A stretch of 13,077 bases of DNA. Source: Gammaproteobacteria bacterium (GTDB taxonomy: Bacteria > Pseudomonadota > Gammaproteobacteria > SZUA-229). Within the stretch, counting starts at the first letter, position 1, and each line of letters opens with the position of its first letter. The stretch lies in NCBI GenBank assembly GCA_013138755.1, contig WTCC01000240.1:1-13077 (forward strand). Direction: 5' to 3'. The notes below the pieces were generated by a model. That model searched no databases. It was not told the DNA's origin and saw nothing but the letters and a program-made list of their open reading frames with translations. The position numbers and the translations under genes are program-made. This document shows, piece by piece, positions 937 to 6,396 of this stretch.

Positions 937-1163
937 AAAGGGATAAAAATATGAAAAAAATCACTCGAAGTGATGGCGTTAAGTTGAACATAGTAAAAGT
1001 TAAACTAAATTGATTAATATCAGTTTTTAGTAATTTACTAATACTTGCAAGCCATTGCTCAAGCAATGAAACTTAATTGGCGATGACAGCCTGCTTTGGG
1101 TCGTGAACTGACCTTCACAAACTCCAAGTATTTGATGTTCGAGTAGTGATAAAAAAAATAGAG

Positions 1164-1185
1164 TGTACCAATTTTGTACCAATTT
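1164..1185. repeat. Tandem 11-bp direct repeat, pair 1
   Basis: TGTACCAATTT occurs twice back to back (1164-1174 and 1175-1185) without mismatch. It lies about 90 bp left of the tRNA-Met fragment, the side where element DNA would be. Direct repeats with one-helical-turn spacing are typical of arm-type binding sites of tyrosine integrases; that function is inferred. Confidence 0.8.
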
Positions 1186-1276
1186 AAGGTCATTTTACTG
1201 CTATTTACAGCTAATTACTGGCGGGCAAACGCCATAAGTGATTGATTAATAAGGAGGGGTGTTTCTCAGGTTCATT

Positions 1277-1321
1277 TTCATAATGCCGGGGTCGGTGGTT
1301 CAAGTCCACCCATGACCACCA
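1277..1321 (+). tRNA. tRNA-Met (CAT) 3' fragment, probable att scar
   Basis: This is the 3' part of an elongator-type tRNA-Met, from the anticodon loop TTCATAA (anticodon CAT at 1279-1281) to the encoded CCA (1319-1321). After the 3' anticodon stem strand TGCCG (1284-1288) comes a 5-nt variable loop. The T arm is GGTGG-TTCAAGT-CCACC (1294-1310). The 3' acceptor strand CATGACC (1311-1317) and discriminator A follow. The 5' half is missing: upstream DNA has neither the CGGCA needed for the anticodon stem nor a D arm. It is not a working tRNA. A 3' fragment like this is what remains when an element integrates in a tRNA gene; the intact copy should lie to the left, outside the window. Confidence 0.85.
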
Positions 1322-1324
1322 TTT

Positions 1325-1338
1325 TTTCAATAAGTTAC
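1325..1338. repeat. 14-bp repeat after tRNA-Met CCA (copy 1)
   Basis: TTTCAATAAGTTAC begins four bases after the tRNA-Met CCA. The same 14 bases follow the tRNA-Leu CCA at 1464-1477, so the two scars share more than tRNA sequence. Confidence 0.8.
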
Positions 1339-1363
1339 GATAAAATAATATTGCGAAATATTC

Positions 1364-1385
1364 TCTGGGTCGTTTCTGGGTTGTT
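1364..1385. repeat. Tandem 11-bp direct repeat, pair 2
   Basis: TCTGGGTCGTT (1364-1374) is followed directly by TCTGGGTTGTT (1375-1385), 10 of 11 identical. The pair lies 19 bp left of the tRNA-Leu fragment. The core TGGGTCGT also appears at 881-888 and 1097-1104. Probable integrase arm-type sites, by inference. Confidence 0.75.
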
Positions 1386-1404
1386 TCTATATTAAAGCAA
1401 ATGA

Positions 1405-1459
1405 TTCAAAATCCGGTTTCCTCACGGAAGTGCCGGTTCGATTCCGGCCCTCGGTACCA
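1405..1459 (+). tRNA. tRNA-Leu (CAA) 3' fragment, probable att scar
   Basis: This is the 3' part of a class II tRNA. It has the anticodon loop TTCAAAA (anticodon CAA at 1407-1409), the 3' anticodon stem strand TCCGG (1412-1416), and a long variable arm with TTCC/GGAA paired (1418-1421, 1426-1429). The T arm is GCCGG-TTCGATT-CCGGC (1432-1448), then acceptor strand CCTCGGT, discriminator A and CCA (1457-1459). The long variable arm and anticodon identify tRNA-Leu. The sequence upstream of the loop lacks the CCGGA partner, a D arm and a 5' acceptor strand, so it cannot fold as a full tRNA. It is read as the chromosome-side remnant of a second integration event. Confidence 0.85.
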
Positions 1460-1463
1460 ATTA

Positions 1464-1477
1464 TTTCAATAAGTTAC
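1464..1477. repeat. 14-bp repeat after tRNA-Leu CCA (copy 2)
   Basis: Identical TTTCAATAAGTTAC, starting five bases after the tRNA-Leu CCA. See the copy at 1325-1338. Confidence 0.8.
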
Positions 1478-1516
1478 AGCAAACTCTTCCAGCCCGTATA
1501 TTTCCAATAATTCTTG

Positions 1517-1538
1517 TGTAGACACAGTGTAGACAACC
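1517..1538. repeat. Tandem repeat of period 11, pair 3
   Basis: TGTAGACA occurs at 1517-1524 and 1528-1535, again exactly 11 bp apart; the longer shared form GTGTAGACA is at 1516-1524 and 1527-1535. It lies right of the tRNA-Leu fragment. No third tRNA fragment follows it. Confidence 0.65.
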
Positions 1539-2097: not shown

Positions 2098-3051
2098 TCA
2101 GTTTGCGGACACAAGTTGTTCTTTTGCTACCCGACGCACCATACCCGGACCAACACCAAATTGTTTTTTGAATGCTTTACGGAATGCAGCCTCGCTTTGA
2201 TAACTACTGTCCTCGGTAATCTGTGTAACTGATTTTCCGTTTGAGGTCAGTTCATCATAGGCATGTTGCATACGCCAACCCGTGACATATTCCATTGGCG
2301 ACATATCCACCATCTGTTTAAATTTATCAGCAAAAGCGGAGCGTGACATTCCAGCTTCTTCAGATAATGTTTGTACTGTCCAGGTATTTTCAGGTTGTTT
2401 ATGAAAGCTCGTCAGCGCCTTACTTAACCGTGAATCTTTCAAAGCGGCAATATAACCCTGATTATTATTCTGCAGTTGTATGTATTTTCGAATGGCTTCA
2501 ATAAACAAAATATCTGATAAGCGATCTATGATTGCATTTGTACACTCACCGGCAGACTCTACTTCAGCGATCATCAGCTTGATGACACTCGCCAGGTTTG
2601 ATCCCGCAGAGTCTGCGGTCGGAATCACCATGATGTTCGGCATCGCTTCCAACATCGGGTTCCAGTAATACTGAAGGAATTCGCATTGGCCACAGATCAA
2701 CGACGTTGATGGACCCGGTGTTTCTTCTGTCGTTGGGCTATTGCGCGGCAAATCATCCGGCGGCAGTTCCGGGCTATTGGTTACATAATGAGGCGTGTTG
2801 CGTAAACAGATGACCAGGTCGCCGGCATGCAGCGCAGTGGGTGTCGGCGCTTTTTTCGTGTGCAACCAGCAATCACCATGGGCGATGACATGAAAGCTGA
2901 CCTGCAGGTTTAGTGGCTCAATATCAATGACCCAATGCTCGCAAAACTTCGCATGTAAAAAAACCTTCGAACTCAGGCGCAGCGTTTTGAGTACATCATT
3001 CAGGATATCCATGAGAATCAATCTAAAGGCAATGCCTGGACGATAAGACAT
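2098..3051 (-). CDS. AraC-family regulator with N-terminal cupin-type domain
   Basis: The C-terminal ~95 residues form the AraC/XylS double helix-turn-helix DNA-binding domain: first HTH near 224-246 (W-T-V-Q-x-L-S-E-E-A-G-M-S-R-S-A-F), P-M-E-Y-V-x-x-W-R-M at 252-261, second HTH near 275-297 (V-T-Q-I-T...Y-Q-S-E-A-A-F-R-K-A-F). Residues 14-150 fit the cupin-like ligand-binding domain of regulators that begin M-D-x-L-x-D-V-L. That family feature favours Met14 (ATG at 3010-3012) as the true start. No ribosome binding site separates the two choices. The gene diverges from the cysteine hydrolase gene across 125 bp containing two dyads, so it probably controls that gene and the sulfurtransferase behind it. 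The inducer is unknown. Confidence 0.88.
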   Translation of the reverse strand: MSYRPGIAFRLILMDILNDVLKTLRLSSKVFLHAKFCEHWVIDIEPLNLQVSFHVIAHGDCWLHTKKAPTPTALHAGDLVICLRNTPHYVTNSPELPPDDLPRNSPTTEETPGPSTSLICGQCEFLQYYWNPMLEAMPNIMVIPTADSAGSNLASVIKLMIAEVESAGECTNAIIDRLSDILFIEAIRKYIQLQNNNQGYIAALKDSRLSKALTSFHKQPENTWTVQTLSEEAGMSRSAFADKFKQMVDMSPMEYVTGWRMQHAYDELTSNGKSVTQITEDSSYQSEAAFRKAFKKQFGVGPGMVRRVAKEQLVSAN

Positions 3052-3068
3052 AAATTATGGGTGACTGG

Positions 3069-3087
3069 ACATATTTTGTGCATATGT
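3069..3087. promoter_or_regulatory. Dyad ACATAT-N7-ATATGT, candidate operator
   Basis: Perfect 6-bp arms at 3069-3074 and 3082-3087 lie in the divergent region between the AraC-type gene and the hydrolase gene. The position suits autoregulation. The assignment rests on symmetry and location only. Confidence 0.35.
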
Positions 3088-3105
3088 ATCTCCCTATGAT
3101 TGTAG

Positions 3106-3137
3106 TTACTCACCAAGTCAGACGATTTGCTGAGTAA
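3106..3137. promoter_or_regulatory. Dyad TTACTCA-N18-TGAGTAA, candidate operator
   Basis: Perfect 7-bp arms at 3106-3112 and 3131-3137, ending 39 bp before the hydrolase start codon. It could be a regulator site or part of the leader. Inferred from symmetry. Confidence 0.3.
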
Positions 3138-3176
3138 TGCATACCTTAAACCAAAAATGTTATAGGAGCAATAAAA

Positions 3177-3941
3177 ATGAAAACTATAAAGATAAATATG
3201 AAAGCAAAACAGGCACTTATATTGATCCTAATGATAAGTGCAGTAGCTAATACTTACGCTGGGCTACCCAACCCGGGCATGGCATTTGATCCAAAGCGTA
3301 CCGCAGTGGTGATAACCGACCCGCAAAATGATTTTCTCAGTGAGAAAGGCGTGACCTGGGGTGTCGTCGGCAAAAGTGTTGTCAAAAACAATACGGTCGA
3401 AAACATTGAAAGTTTATTCAAGGCGGCAAAAAAAAGTAATGTGCCGGTATTTGTATCACCGCATTACTACTATCCAACCGATCATGGCTGGCACTTTGAA
3501 GGCGCATTGGAGAATCTGATGCACAACATCAAGATGTTCGACCGTAAAGATGCCTTAAGCCTGGACGGTTTCAATAACTCGGGGGCTGACTGGCTAGAAC
3601 AATATGACCCCTATATCAAGGACGGCAAAACCATCATCACCAGCCCGCATAAAGTATACGGTCCTGAAACAAATGACCTGGTATTGCAATTACGTAAACG
3701 CGGTATCGACAAGGTCATCCTGGCGGGCATGTCTGCCAACCTGTGTGTCGAATCACATCTGCGTGAATTACTGGAGCAGGGTTTTGAGGTGACCGTTGTT
3801 AAAGACGCCACTGCAGGTGCCCAAGTGCCAGAAGGTGATGGTTATGAGGCGGCCCTGGTGAACTTCAGATACCTGGCGAACGCCGTTGTTACAACCAAAG
3901 ATGCAGTCAAGGCAATCACCAATAAGACCGCACTTAAGTAA
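3177..3941 (+). CDS. Exported isochorismatase-like cysteine hydrolase
   Basis: This is a cysteine hydrolase of the isochorismatase superfamily, which hydrolyses amide, imide or vinyl-ether bonds. The catalytic triad is readable: Asp48 (V-I-T-D-P-Q-N-D-F), Lys159 (S-P-H-K-V) and Cys190 (S-A-N-L-C-V-E-S-H). Residues 1-28 look like a Sec signal peptide, with basic residues, a hydrophobic core at 12-24 and a likely cut after N-T-Y-A. A periplasmic site is unusual, since most relatives are cytoplasmic. The start is supported by AGGAG at 3164-3168. The gene is divergent from the AraC-type regulator and only 38 bp before the sulfurtransferase gene, so the two are probably co-transcribed. The substrate cannot be told from sequence; similar exported proteins are often annotated only as cysteine hydrolase. 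Confidence 0.88.
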   Translation: MKTIKINMKAKQALILILMISAVANTYAGLPNPGMAFDPKRTAVVITDPQNDFLSEKGVTWGVVGKSVVKNNTVENIESLFKAAKKSNVPVFVSPHYYYPTDHGWHFEGALENLMHNIKMFDRKDALSLDGFNNSGADWLEQYDPYIKDGKTIITSPHKVYGPETNDLVLQLRKRGIDKVILAGMSANLCVESHLRELLEQGFEVTVVKDATAGAQVPEGDGYEAALVNFRYLANAVVTTKDAVKAITNKTALK

Positions 3942-3979
3942 ACCTGAAAAACATAAATCACCAAACTGAGGATGAAATC

Positions 3980-4840
3980 ATGTCAAACAAAATATTATAT
4001 ACACCAAAAGAAGCACAAGCACTGGTTAACGAAGGCAAAGCAATAATAATCGATGTACGCGATGCCGAAGATTATGCTGAAGACCATATTCCTAGCGCCG
4101 TTAACATTTCAGACATGTTTTATGAACTCTCTATGACAACCAAAGAAGGTTTGAACGAGATGACAAGCAAGTTCAAAAAACTGTTTTCAGAAGCAGGCAT
4201 TACGAAAGATAAACTTGCCATCATCTATGAAGACAACTTGAGTACCCGCTATGGTGGCTCATGCCGTGGATACTTTCAGTTAACCTATTTGGGCCATGAA
4301 AACGTCGGCATTCTAGATGGCGGCCTTATCGACTGGAAGCGAGATGGCCTGCCGACGAACGATGAGGTGGTTACACCCGTGCCAACAATATTCACACTCA
4401 ACATCAACGACGCTATCATGGTCACCAAGGATTCGATGGCAGAAGCGCTTGGTAATCCAGACATCAAATTACTGGACAACCGTGACAAAGTTGAATGGAT
4501 CGGCGAAAGCTCATCACCTTACGGTGTCGACTTTGCACCGCGTAAAGGCCGTATTCCCGGTGCACGATGGATCGAGTGGTATAACTTCATGGAAAATGAT
4601 GCTAGCGGTTATATCTCACATTTCAAATCACCAGAGGCTATCCGTGAGATATGTGCAGAGCTCGATCTGCATCCTGAAGATGACATCATTATCTATTGCT
4701 TCAAAGGCGCGCGTGCGGCAAATACCTATGTCGCGTTGAAGATGGCCGGTTTTAAGAACATCCGTAACTACTATGGCTCATGGAATGAATGGTCACGCGA
4801 TATGTCATTGCCTATTGATGACACAGTTCTTGCTGCCTGA
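3980..4840 (+). CDS. Two-domain rhodanese-type sulfurtransferase
   Basis: The protein has tandem rhodanese domains: an N-terminal one (about 6-125, with I-I-D-V-R-D-A-E-D-Y and H-I-P-S-A-V-N) and a C-terminal one (about 147-278, with L-L-D-N-R and R-I-P-G-A). Only the second carries an active-site cysteine, Cys240, in loop C-F-K-G-A-R. The first has no Cys at the matching place, the normal arrangement in thiosulfate:cyanide and 3-mercaptopyruvate sulfurtransferases. The reaction would be sulfane sulfur transfer through a Cys240 persulfide. The loop is not a clear match to either the thiosulfate or the mercaptopyruvate type, so the donor is open. There is no signal peptide, so it should be cytoplasmic. 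GAGG at 3967-3970 supports the start. It is probably the second gene of the operon with the exported hydrolase. Confidence 0.9.
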   Translation: MSNKILYTPKEAQALVNEGKAIIIDVRDAEDYAEDHIPSAVNISDMFYELSMTTKEGLNEMTSKFKKLFSEAGITKDKLAIIYEDNLSTRYGGSCRGYFQLTYLGHENVGILDGGLIDWKRDGLPTNDEVVTPVPTIFTLNINDAIMVTKDSMAEALGNPDIKLLDNRDKVEWIGESSSPYGVDFAPRKGRIPGARWIEWYNFMENDASGYISHFKSPEAIREICAELDLHPEDDIIIYCFKGARAANTYVALKMAGFKNIRNYYGSWNEWSRDMSLPIDDTVLAA

Positions 4841-5283: not shown

Positions 5284-6396
5284 TTAGTCATCATCGACAT
5301 GCAACAGGATCTCAGGCTCACTTTCCATCTGATGGATGGCGGCTGTTAGGTCAATCTTGTGCGGGTTATCTGTACTCTGTTTTCTCAGTGCAGTATCTAG
5401 TTCGTGTTGTTCCAGCGTGTACCCCTCACCATTTTCATTTTGAATATATGCCGCCCATGGTACGAATTTTGTAAGTGGGAATAGTTGTCCTGCTGATGGA
5501 GATATGTCGATGTGGATACCGGAAATGAAGATCACTTTTTTCCTGCGGTAAGATTTTTCTTTTACGATTGTTCTGAACGTGCGGTCAAACTCTACTTGTG
5601 AATTTACTTTAGCAGCGGTTAGAGCTGGTGAATGACTGCGGAGTATTTCAGGCATAGCTTTAATCAGATTGCGATTTAGAATTCCGCTTGCCACTGTGTC
5701 ATCGGTTACGCGTTTGAAGTGAAACAGGTCGGCAAATAAGAATTGGTTGATAGGCGTTTTTGTGTCTGGCCAATTTTCCCCGATGCGTTTGATTAGTTGA
5801 TCAGAGGCAATAAACGATTTGGCTGTGCTGTAGGAATGTACTACATTGAGGTCACTAACAATCTGTGGCATGTTGAGAAACATTCCCTCATTTCTATCTT
5901 GATTTAATAACTGATTGTCGATGGTGACAACTTTTCTCTCTTTTTCTCTATCAAGTGATATCTGTTGGCAGGTGAAATCGTATTCTTCTTTATACCAGTC
6001 GAGTACGCCACATAAGGCGCCACAGTCTGTCGATAATTCATGATTCTCAGTTTGTAAGCGGCGATAAACGCCAAATTTCTTGTTTTCAGGATTGTAACCA
6101 ACATGACTAGCCTGAATGATGACCACATCTTTGCCGTGATCAGAGTGCGGGCCGTGGCGGTCGGTGGCCACTACACCGCCAACGCGTCCATGGTTGAAAG
6201 GGAAAGTGCCAAAATGTTTGGCGAGTAATATTATCGGATAACCCTGATTTTCATCTGAGCAGAAAGCACGTGAAGGCATAATGTCATTAGGTTTCATGCC
6301 GAGTGATAGGCAGAAGTTAAATAAGCGCGGTGCGAAATCACTGTAGCGCATGGCAACAGTATCGACTTTAAAATTGGATGTGTTGTATTCAGGCAT
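5284..6396 (-). CDS. Probable LCIB/LCIC-family (theta-class) carbonic anhydrase
   Basis: This 370-aa protein has the ordered metal-site motifs of the limiting-CO2-inducible B/C family: Cys46 in R-A-F-C-S-D-E (43-49), His98 in Q-A-S-H-V-G-Y (95-101) and Cys125 in S-T-D-C-G-A-L-C-G (122-130). In that family Cys, His and Cys bind zinc, and a nearby Asp (here Asp48) and Arg assist hydration of CO2. Algal members have C-R-D-E where this protein has C-S-D-E, so Arg43 may stand in. The last ~150 residues lie beyond the catalytic core and I cannot assign them. No signal peptide or membrane segment is visible, so it should be cytoplasmic. Met16 is an alternative start; neither has a strong ribosome binding site. 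It lies 2.2 kb from cbbO, fitting a role in bicarbonate/CO2 balance for RuBisCO. It could have lost activity or act as a sensor. Confidence 0.7.
   Translation of the reverse strand: MPEYNTSNFKVDTVAMRYSDFAPRLFNFCLSLGMKPNDIMPSRAFCSDENQGYPIILLAKHFGTFPFNHGRVGGVVATDRHGPHSDHGKDVVIIQASHVGYNPENKKFGVYRRLQTENHELSTDCGALCGVLDWYKEEYDFTCQQISLDREKERKVVTIDNQLLNQDRNEGMFLNMPQIVSDLNVVHSYSTAKSFIASDQLIKRIGENWPDTKTPINQFLFADLFHFKRVTDDTVASGILNRNLIKAMPEILRSHSPALTAAKVNSQVEFDRTFRTIVKEKSYRRKKVIFISGIHIDISPSAGQLFPLTKFVPWAAYIQNENGEGYTLEQHELDTALRKQSTDNPHKIDLTAAIHQMESEPEILLHVDDD

Follow-up and report, generated by a model that had tools for sequence, protein, structure and literature searches.

Tandem 3' fragments of tRNA-Met and tRNA-Leu as integration scars on a gammaproteobacterial contig

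In attachment sites of the lambda type (attP), the core is followed by the IHF H' site and by contiguous arm-type repeats. The consensus for IHF binding is WATCAANNNNTTR. Behind a tRNA 3' fragment that was simply displaced by an integrating element, the host flank comes next.

Genomic islands in tRNA genes have been collected in the Islander database, where Table 1 gives an anticodon-centred site for 2083 of 3919 islands and a 3' fragment for 3760 (PMC4383910). The locus described here resembles the anticodon-centred islands of this collection, which, in the cited part of that work, combine 3' fragments spanning anticodon loop to CCA with a tyrosine integrase and a restored intact gene. Tandem islands at one tRNA gene are described there with an integrase and a fragment for each island, whereas our locus contains two different targets within 183 bp and no adjoining integrase (PMC4383910, cited part). 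Chimeric att sites, CIMEs reduced to their att sites and recombination in spite of very different integrases are likewise known (PMC5704250). The likeness to such tandem accretion and to CIMEs lies in a core that stands between arms from two elements whose integrases differ, and in the loss of the integration genes while the att sites were kept. In the cited sections of that paper accretion and CIMEs are described at a single target gene, whereas here a Met and a Leu core occur in tandem (PMC5704250).

The two tRNA fragments and their intact counterparts

The analysed stretch of 13,077 bp, in the following called the window, is the complete contig C281 of the source genome G000, a draft of 2.15 Mb in 368 contigs with a completeness of 73%. 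It had been predicted from the sequence that two tRNA 3' ends, Met-CAT and Leu-CAA, stand here in tandem without their 5' halves. Comparison with the intact genes bore this out. The tRNA-Met(CAT) 3' half (1277..1321, plus strand) is exactly identical to the intact gene G000:C222:15581-15657, with a common stretch of 47 nt (1277-1323, E 1.2e-17). The tRNA-Leu(CAA) 3' half (1403..1459, plus strand) is identical over 57 nt to the intact gene G000:C300:3273-3359 (E 4.4e-23). The match of both fragments to intact tRNA genes is far beyond chance. The predicted extent from the anticodon loop to the encoded CCA agrees with the alignments: in the Met fragment identity begins with the opening base of the loop (TTCATAA), and in the Leu fragment it sets in 2 nt earlier than the loop (TTCAAAA at 1405). 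Both fragments lack the D arm and the 5' acceptor strand, and both end with an encoded CCA. They are separated by 81 bp (1322-1402), and each of them is closed by an 18-bp near-repeat (17/18), whose register lies within 1 bp of the CCA.

ARAGORN detected no tRNA in the window, and Rfam gave no match at the gathering score. Matches below this cut-off (HPnc0260, RsaOG, tmRNA) were rejected as chance or as similarity of the T arm only. Matches of plasmid and phage DNA covered 8-10% of the query and were set aside as short similarities to tRNA 3' halves. Both fragments are real and represent scars of integration at tRNA genes. The intact genes, for which a search of the genome had been proposed, were thus found with identical 3' parts on C222 and C300. 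The expectation that these genes and the elements lie to the left of the window received no support, as the window is a whole contig and C222 and C300 end at the tRNA.

The related element and the arm-like sequences

With the window as query, some match was obtained in 17 of 18 genomes of the same genus. In G012, C37:2895-3061 is 92% identical to window positions 1161-1327, including the Met fragment. This region forms the fragment-side end of a 5.6 kb element, in which an intact tRNA-Met, the integrase-side arm, the integrase, an excisionase-like gene, the far arm, the exact Met fragment and the flank follow each other. The intact tRNA-Met lies on the same strand as the displaced fragment, 5.6 kb away, and the joint of far arm and Met fragment is located inside a contig of 121,782 bp. 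The integrase (PF00589, 4.8e-36) points with its C-terminus toward the tRNA. The excisionase-like gene matches phrog_2907 (1.1e-9), and a further protein is weakly similar to a replication initiator (E 0.00028). Relatives of the integrase occur in phage records with up to 47% identity and in 8 of 54 family genomes, and a truncated relative was found behind the tRNA-Met of G013. None was detected at E <= 1e-12 in G000 (73% complete), nor was the body of an E1-type element found in this bin. Because of the 92% match to the end of the G012 element, positions 1161..1276 (plus strand) are regarded as the far-end arm (P arm) of such an element, here called E1. The prediction that the 3' ends were displaced by integration at tRNA genes is supported by the intact donors in G000 and by the G012 element, where the integrase lies between tRNA-Met and the fragment on one strand; the G000 donor contigs end at the tRNA.

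Sequences resembling attachment-site arms were found on both sides of the Met core and behind the Leu core. The E1 arm contains a tandem pair TGTACCAATTTTGTACCAATTT with 11-bp period (1164..1185, plus strand; 11/11, shuffle p 0.005 uncorrected), whose motif TGTACCA is shared by the two G012 arms, the P arm and the integrase-side one, and a strict match to the IHF consensus, AATCAATCACTTA (1235..1247, minus strand). Just after the Met CCA follows an IHF-like site, TTTCAATAAGTTA (1325..1337, plus strand; one mismatch, p 0.052 alone), and then, in the arm named E2, the pair TCTGGGTCGTTTCTGGGTTGTTTCT with 11-bp period (1364..1388, plus strand; 10/11, shuffle p 0.010 uncorrected). This pair begins 42 nt past the CCA; the distance is 44-54 nt at the other sites where p <= 0.05. 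The E2 arm stops 14 bp before the Leu match, and the spacer in between (1389..1402, plus strand), part of a tract without a significant match in the genome, is the probable joint of a deletion or rearrangement. Behind the Leu CCA, the integrase-side arm E3 (1460..1528, plus strand) was assigned from the 81% identity of window 1403-1528 to the tRNA-Leu 3' half and downstream sequence of G012. It is associated with an IHF-like site TTTCAATAAGTTA (1464..1476, plus strand; p 0.064 alone) and a pair TTGTGTAGACACAGTGTAGACA with 11-bp period (1514..1535, plus strand; 9/11, shuffle p 0.030 uncorrected). Thus TTTCAATAAGTTAC follows closely after both CCA ends, with one mismatch to the IHF consensus. 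The pair motifs differ by unit: TGTACCA in E1, GGGTYGTTTC in E2 behind Met and TGTAGACA in E3 behind Leu. All three pairs are putative arm-type integrase sites.

The arms of the window read as the lambda-type order of core, IHF site and arm sites, with tandem repeats of about 11 bp on the integrase side as putative binding sites. Unlike lambda-type attP, the motifs vary from element to element. We infer from the sequence patterns that the arm motifs would bind IHF and integrase, and that E2 and E3 probably belonged to different elements.

A tandem pair with 11- or 12-bp period at 42-54 nt past the CCA was found at 7 of 18 sites at an uncorrected shuffle p <= 0.05, namely both window units and L039, L045, L145, L153 and L169 (5 of 16 other sites); at 11 of the 18 sites it was not significant. 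Among 12 other tRNA ends of G000, no pair with p <= 0.05 was detected (C222, C300 and C353, where the contig stops at this place, were left out). The pattern of a tRNA 3' end followed by TTTCAANNAGTTAC occurs in 10 of 369 genomes of the class, G000 included, and not in the backward control. Eight of the nine matches outside the window follow an intact tRNA according to ARAGORN; the remaining one (L167) is, by eye, a Thr fragment starting at the anticodon loop. The exact pattern CCANTTNTTTCAATAAGTTAC was found in 10 stretches of a public genome collection, and an intact tRNA ends at the match in 3 of these and not in the other 7 (ARAGORN). The three are L039 and L045, titled Deltaproteobacteria, and L044 (Sodalis). 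It is absent from 57 other relatives and from the viral contigs. A 360-aa integrase faces the tRNA in L039. In L039 and L145 the C-terminus of the integrase is directed toward the tRNA, and the same orientation was seen by eye in L168.

Origin of the two-target joint

We consider it probable, at about 60%, that the fragments are att cores of stacked tyrosine-integrase elements, which were later brought within 81 bp by deletion or recombination between islands. Tyrosine integrases would cross over in the anticodon loop, and each fragment would be the core of their attachment site. An integrating element would give its target a new 3' half and displace the old one to the far end of the element. 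Entry of a second element into this tRNA would turn the displaced 3' half into the joint of two elements, in the order far-end arm (newer element), tRNA 3' half, integrase-side arm (older element). At the Met copy these would be the E1 far arm (TGTACCA), the Met core and the E2 integrase-side arm (GGGTYGTTTC). The Leu copy would have kept its core and the E3 integrase-side arm (TGTAGACA) and lost its own left, far-end arm. A deletion or recombination between islands may then have moved the Met and Leu sites together.

At neither core was the arrangement of a plain attR found: arm-like sequence, and no recognisable host flank, comes next, so the fragments were not assigned as plain attR. The stacked or successive integrations considered in the original prediction fit this finding. 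To the left of the Met core the far-end arm of another element is present (E1, 92% to G012). The Leu core is preceded by 14 bp and then by the E2 arm, so that a far-end arm is missing there. To the right, an IHF-like site and a tandem pair with motifs unlike E1 occur at both cores as a sequence pattern. The different motifs in the left and right Met arms and the arm behind each fragment are as tandem accretion predicts. Stacked integration is supported at the Met core and probable at the Leu core. Since no integrase gene adjoins the Met or the Leu site, the two look like dead scars within a mosaic island. In 12 relatives in which both flanking regions were matched, all of them drafts, tRNA-Met and tRNA-Leu are located on separate contigs, so the link requires either deletion or recombination between islands or recombination across targets. 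We favour a deletion or rearrangement between islands as the way by which two targets came within 81 bp. The double scar is the uncommon outcome of an ordinary and well-known process. A history with stacking at both loci and a rearrangement takes more steps than the evidence documents.

An alternative reading of the order of the units is a switch of the assembly at the 47- and 57-bp tRNA repeats, by which the outer neighbours of the cores would have been misassigned. The true order would then be an intact tRNA-Met with the E2 arm, an intact tRNA-Leu with the E3 arm, or both, while the E1 far arm and the Met fragment would lead elsewhere. Contig C222 breaks off 2 nt and C300 0 nt past the CCA, each at the point where its identity with the window ceases, which suggests that the assembly graph branched there; the tRNA-Met contigs of G002 and G017 likewise stop 2 nt past the CCA, and the E3-like arm of G012 follows an intact tRNA-Leu. 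Nevertheless we regard such a switch as unlikely, since the same joint of far arm and Met fragment stands inside the long G012 contig and the tract between the cores is unique. In a BLAST search of 1201-1620 against the whole G000 genome, the only other match inside 1324-1402 was 21 bp long (1327-1347, E 0.78), and no 15-mer within this tract is shared with the G000 stretches that were compared. The link of Met, 81 bp and Leu is therefore not explained by a repeat and is more secure than the outer neighbours.

Somewhat less probable again is that one integrase family switched targets and recombined Met and Leu sites, giving an element with Met at the left and Leu at the right that later shrank to the 81-bp tract. 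Both joints lie at the anticodon loop, the loops TTCATAA and TTCAAAA agree in 6 of 7 positions, and the 81 bp resemble a single integrase-side arm ending at the Leu core. There is also a parallel in Thermococcus, where an integrase inverted the DNA between two mismatched tRNA-Gly genes, and where inversions ending in different tRNA genes have likewise been attributed, as a proposal, to integrases (PMC5495485, cited part). Recombination with an intact tRNA of the other kind would destroy that tRNA, however, so that only displaced copies could be used, and an intact element with two targets was not found. Very improbable is the decay of tRNA genes from a former cluster without any integration. 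The occurrence of tRNA 3' fragments at five places on four G000 contigs might point to it, but all five begin at, or at most 3 nt from, the anticodon loop, and those of the window are base-perfect from the loop to the CCA, with a 5' half that is absent rather than decayed. The separate contigs of tRNA-Met and tRNA-Leu in the 12 draft relatives speak against a cluster as well, and the Met fragment has a direct explanation in the G012 element.

Against the stacked elements joined by a rearrangement count the tandem pairs without significance at 11 of 18 sites, the weak p values of the IHF-like matches taken singly, the results for the exact pattern CCANTTNTTTCAATAAGTTAC, the missing relative of the G012 integrase in G000, the three other G000 fragments without an arm and the lack of a second such tract in the genus. 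A second tract of Met, 81 bp and Leu was not detected in 18 same-genus genomes, nor, with three exact patterns, in viral contigs, and the G012 element carries only one tRNA fragment. The proposed element family that collects tRNA ends thus found no support, and of the integration interpretation as a whole the displaced 3' ends and the stacking remain. The 81-bp tract showed no significant similarity to the tRNA-Met arms of G007 and G012, and the element to which E2 belonged did not turn up in the scanned viral contigs. One viral contig with a GGGTYGTTTC pair is phage-like, with no tRNA and, by eye, no integrase nearby, and was taken as a chance match.

If the two-target joint is true, it would be a record of exchange between islands at different tRNA genes. 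Target switching, if true, would mean that the ends of two tRNA islands were fused, and it could have moved island DNA, or rearranged the chromosome, between the tRNA-Met and tRNA-Leu loci. The basic picture of tRNA-targeted integration is unchanged. The displaced tRNA ends of the window keep an integrase-side arm without an adjoining integrase, and the layout of CCA, IHF-like site and tandem pair might reveal borders of integrase-less islands that are missed by integrase-based finders.

Displaced tRNA ends and islands in the genome and genus

A scan of G000 for the tRNA 3'-end pattern gave 24 matches compared to 3 for the backward control. The T stem is fully paired in 17 of the 24; 12 of these are intact tRNAs (ARAGORN) and five lack the 5' half, so displaced 3' halves are common in this genome. 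Besides the window pair, the five comprise a tRNA-Lys fragment on C88 and fragments of a second tRNA-Met(CAT) on C200 and C324. The C324 fragment, which has diverged, is separated by about 2.6 kb from the intact second tRNA-Met(CAT) gene upstream of it, with a 723-aa ORF in between. No arm with IHF-like site and tandem pair was found behind the fragments on C88, C200 and C324, and an accretion joint is therefore not true of every displaced fragment in G000. At G000:C324:1125-1168 and 3757-3833 and on C200, the intact second tRNA-Met(CAT) gene and both of its 3' fragments have a similar downstream sequence of about 70 bp (GGACCCACGGACTAT..AGTCGG), of which a partial look-alike also follows on C200. 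Were the fragments plain attR sites, this common sequence would have no explanation.

An integrase gene beside the tRNA ends, as expected, was found in G012. In G000, PF00589 gave 9 matches on 6 contigs but none on C281, C88, C200 or C324, which speaks against a tight link to integrases. In the flanks on five of these contigs (C288, C80, C278, C9 and C135, with C192 left out) no tRNA end with an arm was recognised. On C9 (1080-3522, L131) three tyrosine recombinase genes are arranged consecutively on one strand.

In the genus, the stretch from tRNA-Leu to the conserved gene after it, assigned by eye as msrB, is a hotspot of insertion, with a length of about 0.1-0.15 kb in G013 C22 and G010 and of 3.5, 5.4 and 5.8 kb in G004, G007 and G012, respectively. 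Behind the intact tRNA-Leu of G012 an E3-like arm leads not to an integrase but to an HD/dGTPase-like gene, another ORF and an AIPR gene. In G007 an IHF-like site lies behind tRNA-Met; in the remaining contig of about 0.6 kb there is no integrase, and an ORF resembles HsdR by eye. These two contexts suggest that islands which kept their arms but have no integrase recur at the Met as well as the Leu target. A location of the window itself at the tRNA-Leu/msrB locus found no support, as the msrB region of G000 lies on C209, where neither a Leu fragment nor any long similarity to the window is present. On C209 the msrB region is preceded by a gene which reads, by eye, as GGDEF/EAL.

Both hotspots of G012 contain defence-like genes. 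These are the HD/dGTPase and AIPR genes behind the G012 tRNA-Leu (G012:C5, L146) and an AbiEii-like gene beyond the displaced Met fragment (G012:C37, L145).

The left 2.1 kb of the window are a mosaic. A DUF2459 gene occupies 1-690 on the minus strand, and 5-777 is 88% identical to G000 contig C108. A 184-bp repeat (708-891) has copies or parts with 74-86% identity on G000 contigs C26, C284, C227 and C334 and in G012 and G011. Positions 1565-1589 carry a GTCCATCAAACCGTGCAAG-type sequence, possibly a transposon end, which is also present on C85, on C121 and right at the end of C173. A 256-bp repeat (1808-2063) has copies of 90% and 85% identity on G000 contigs C153 and C196. Genes for an AraC-type regulator, an isochorismatase-family protein and a rhodanese follow at 2098-4840 and are 87-90% identical in G001 and G002. 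The left neighbour of this block differs in these two genomes, and the block may move as a unit. The right part of the window contains genes that look RuBisCO-associated (CbbQ_C, RuBisCO small chain, VWA protein), and an LCIB-type beta carbonic anhydrase domain protein is encoded close to the cbb genes (5284-6396).
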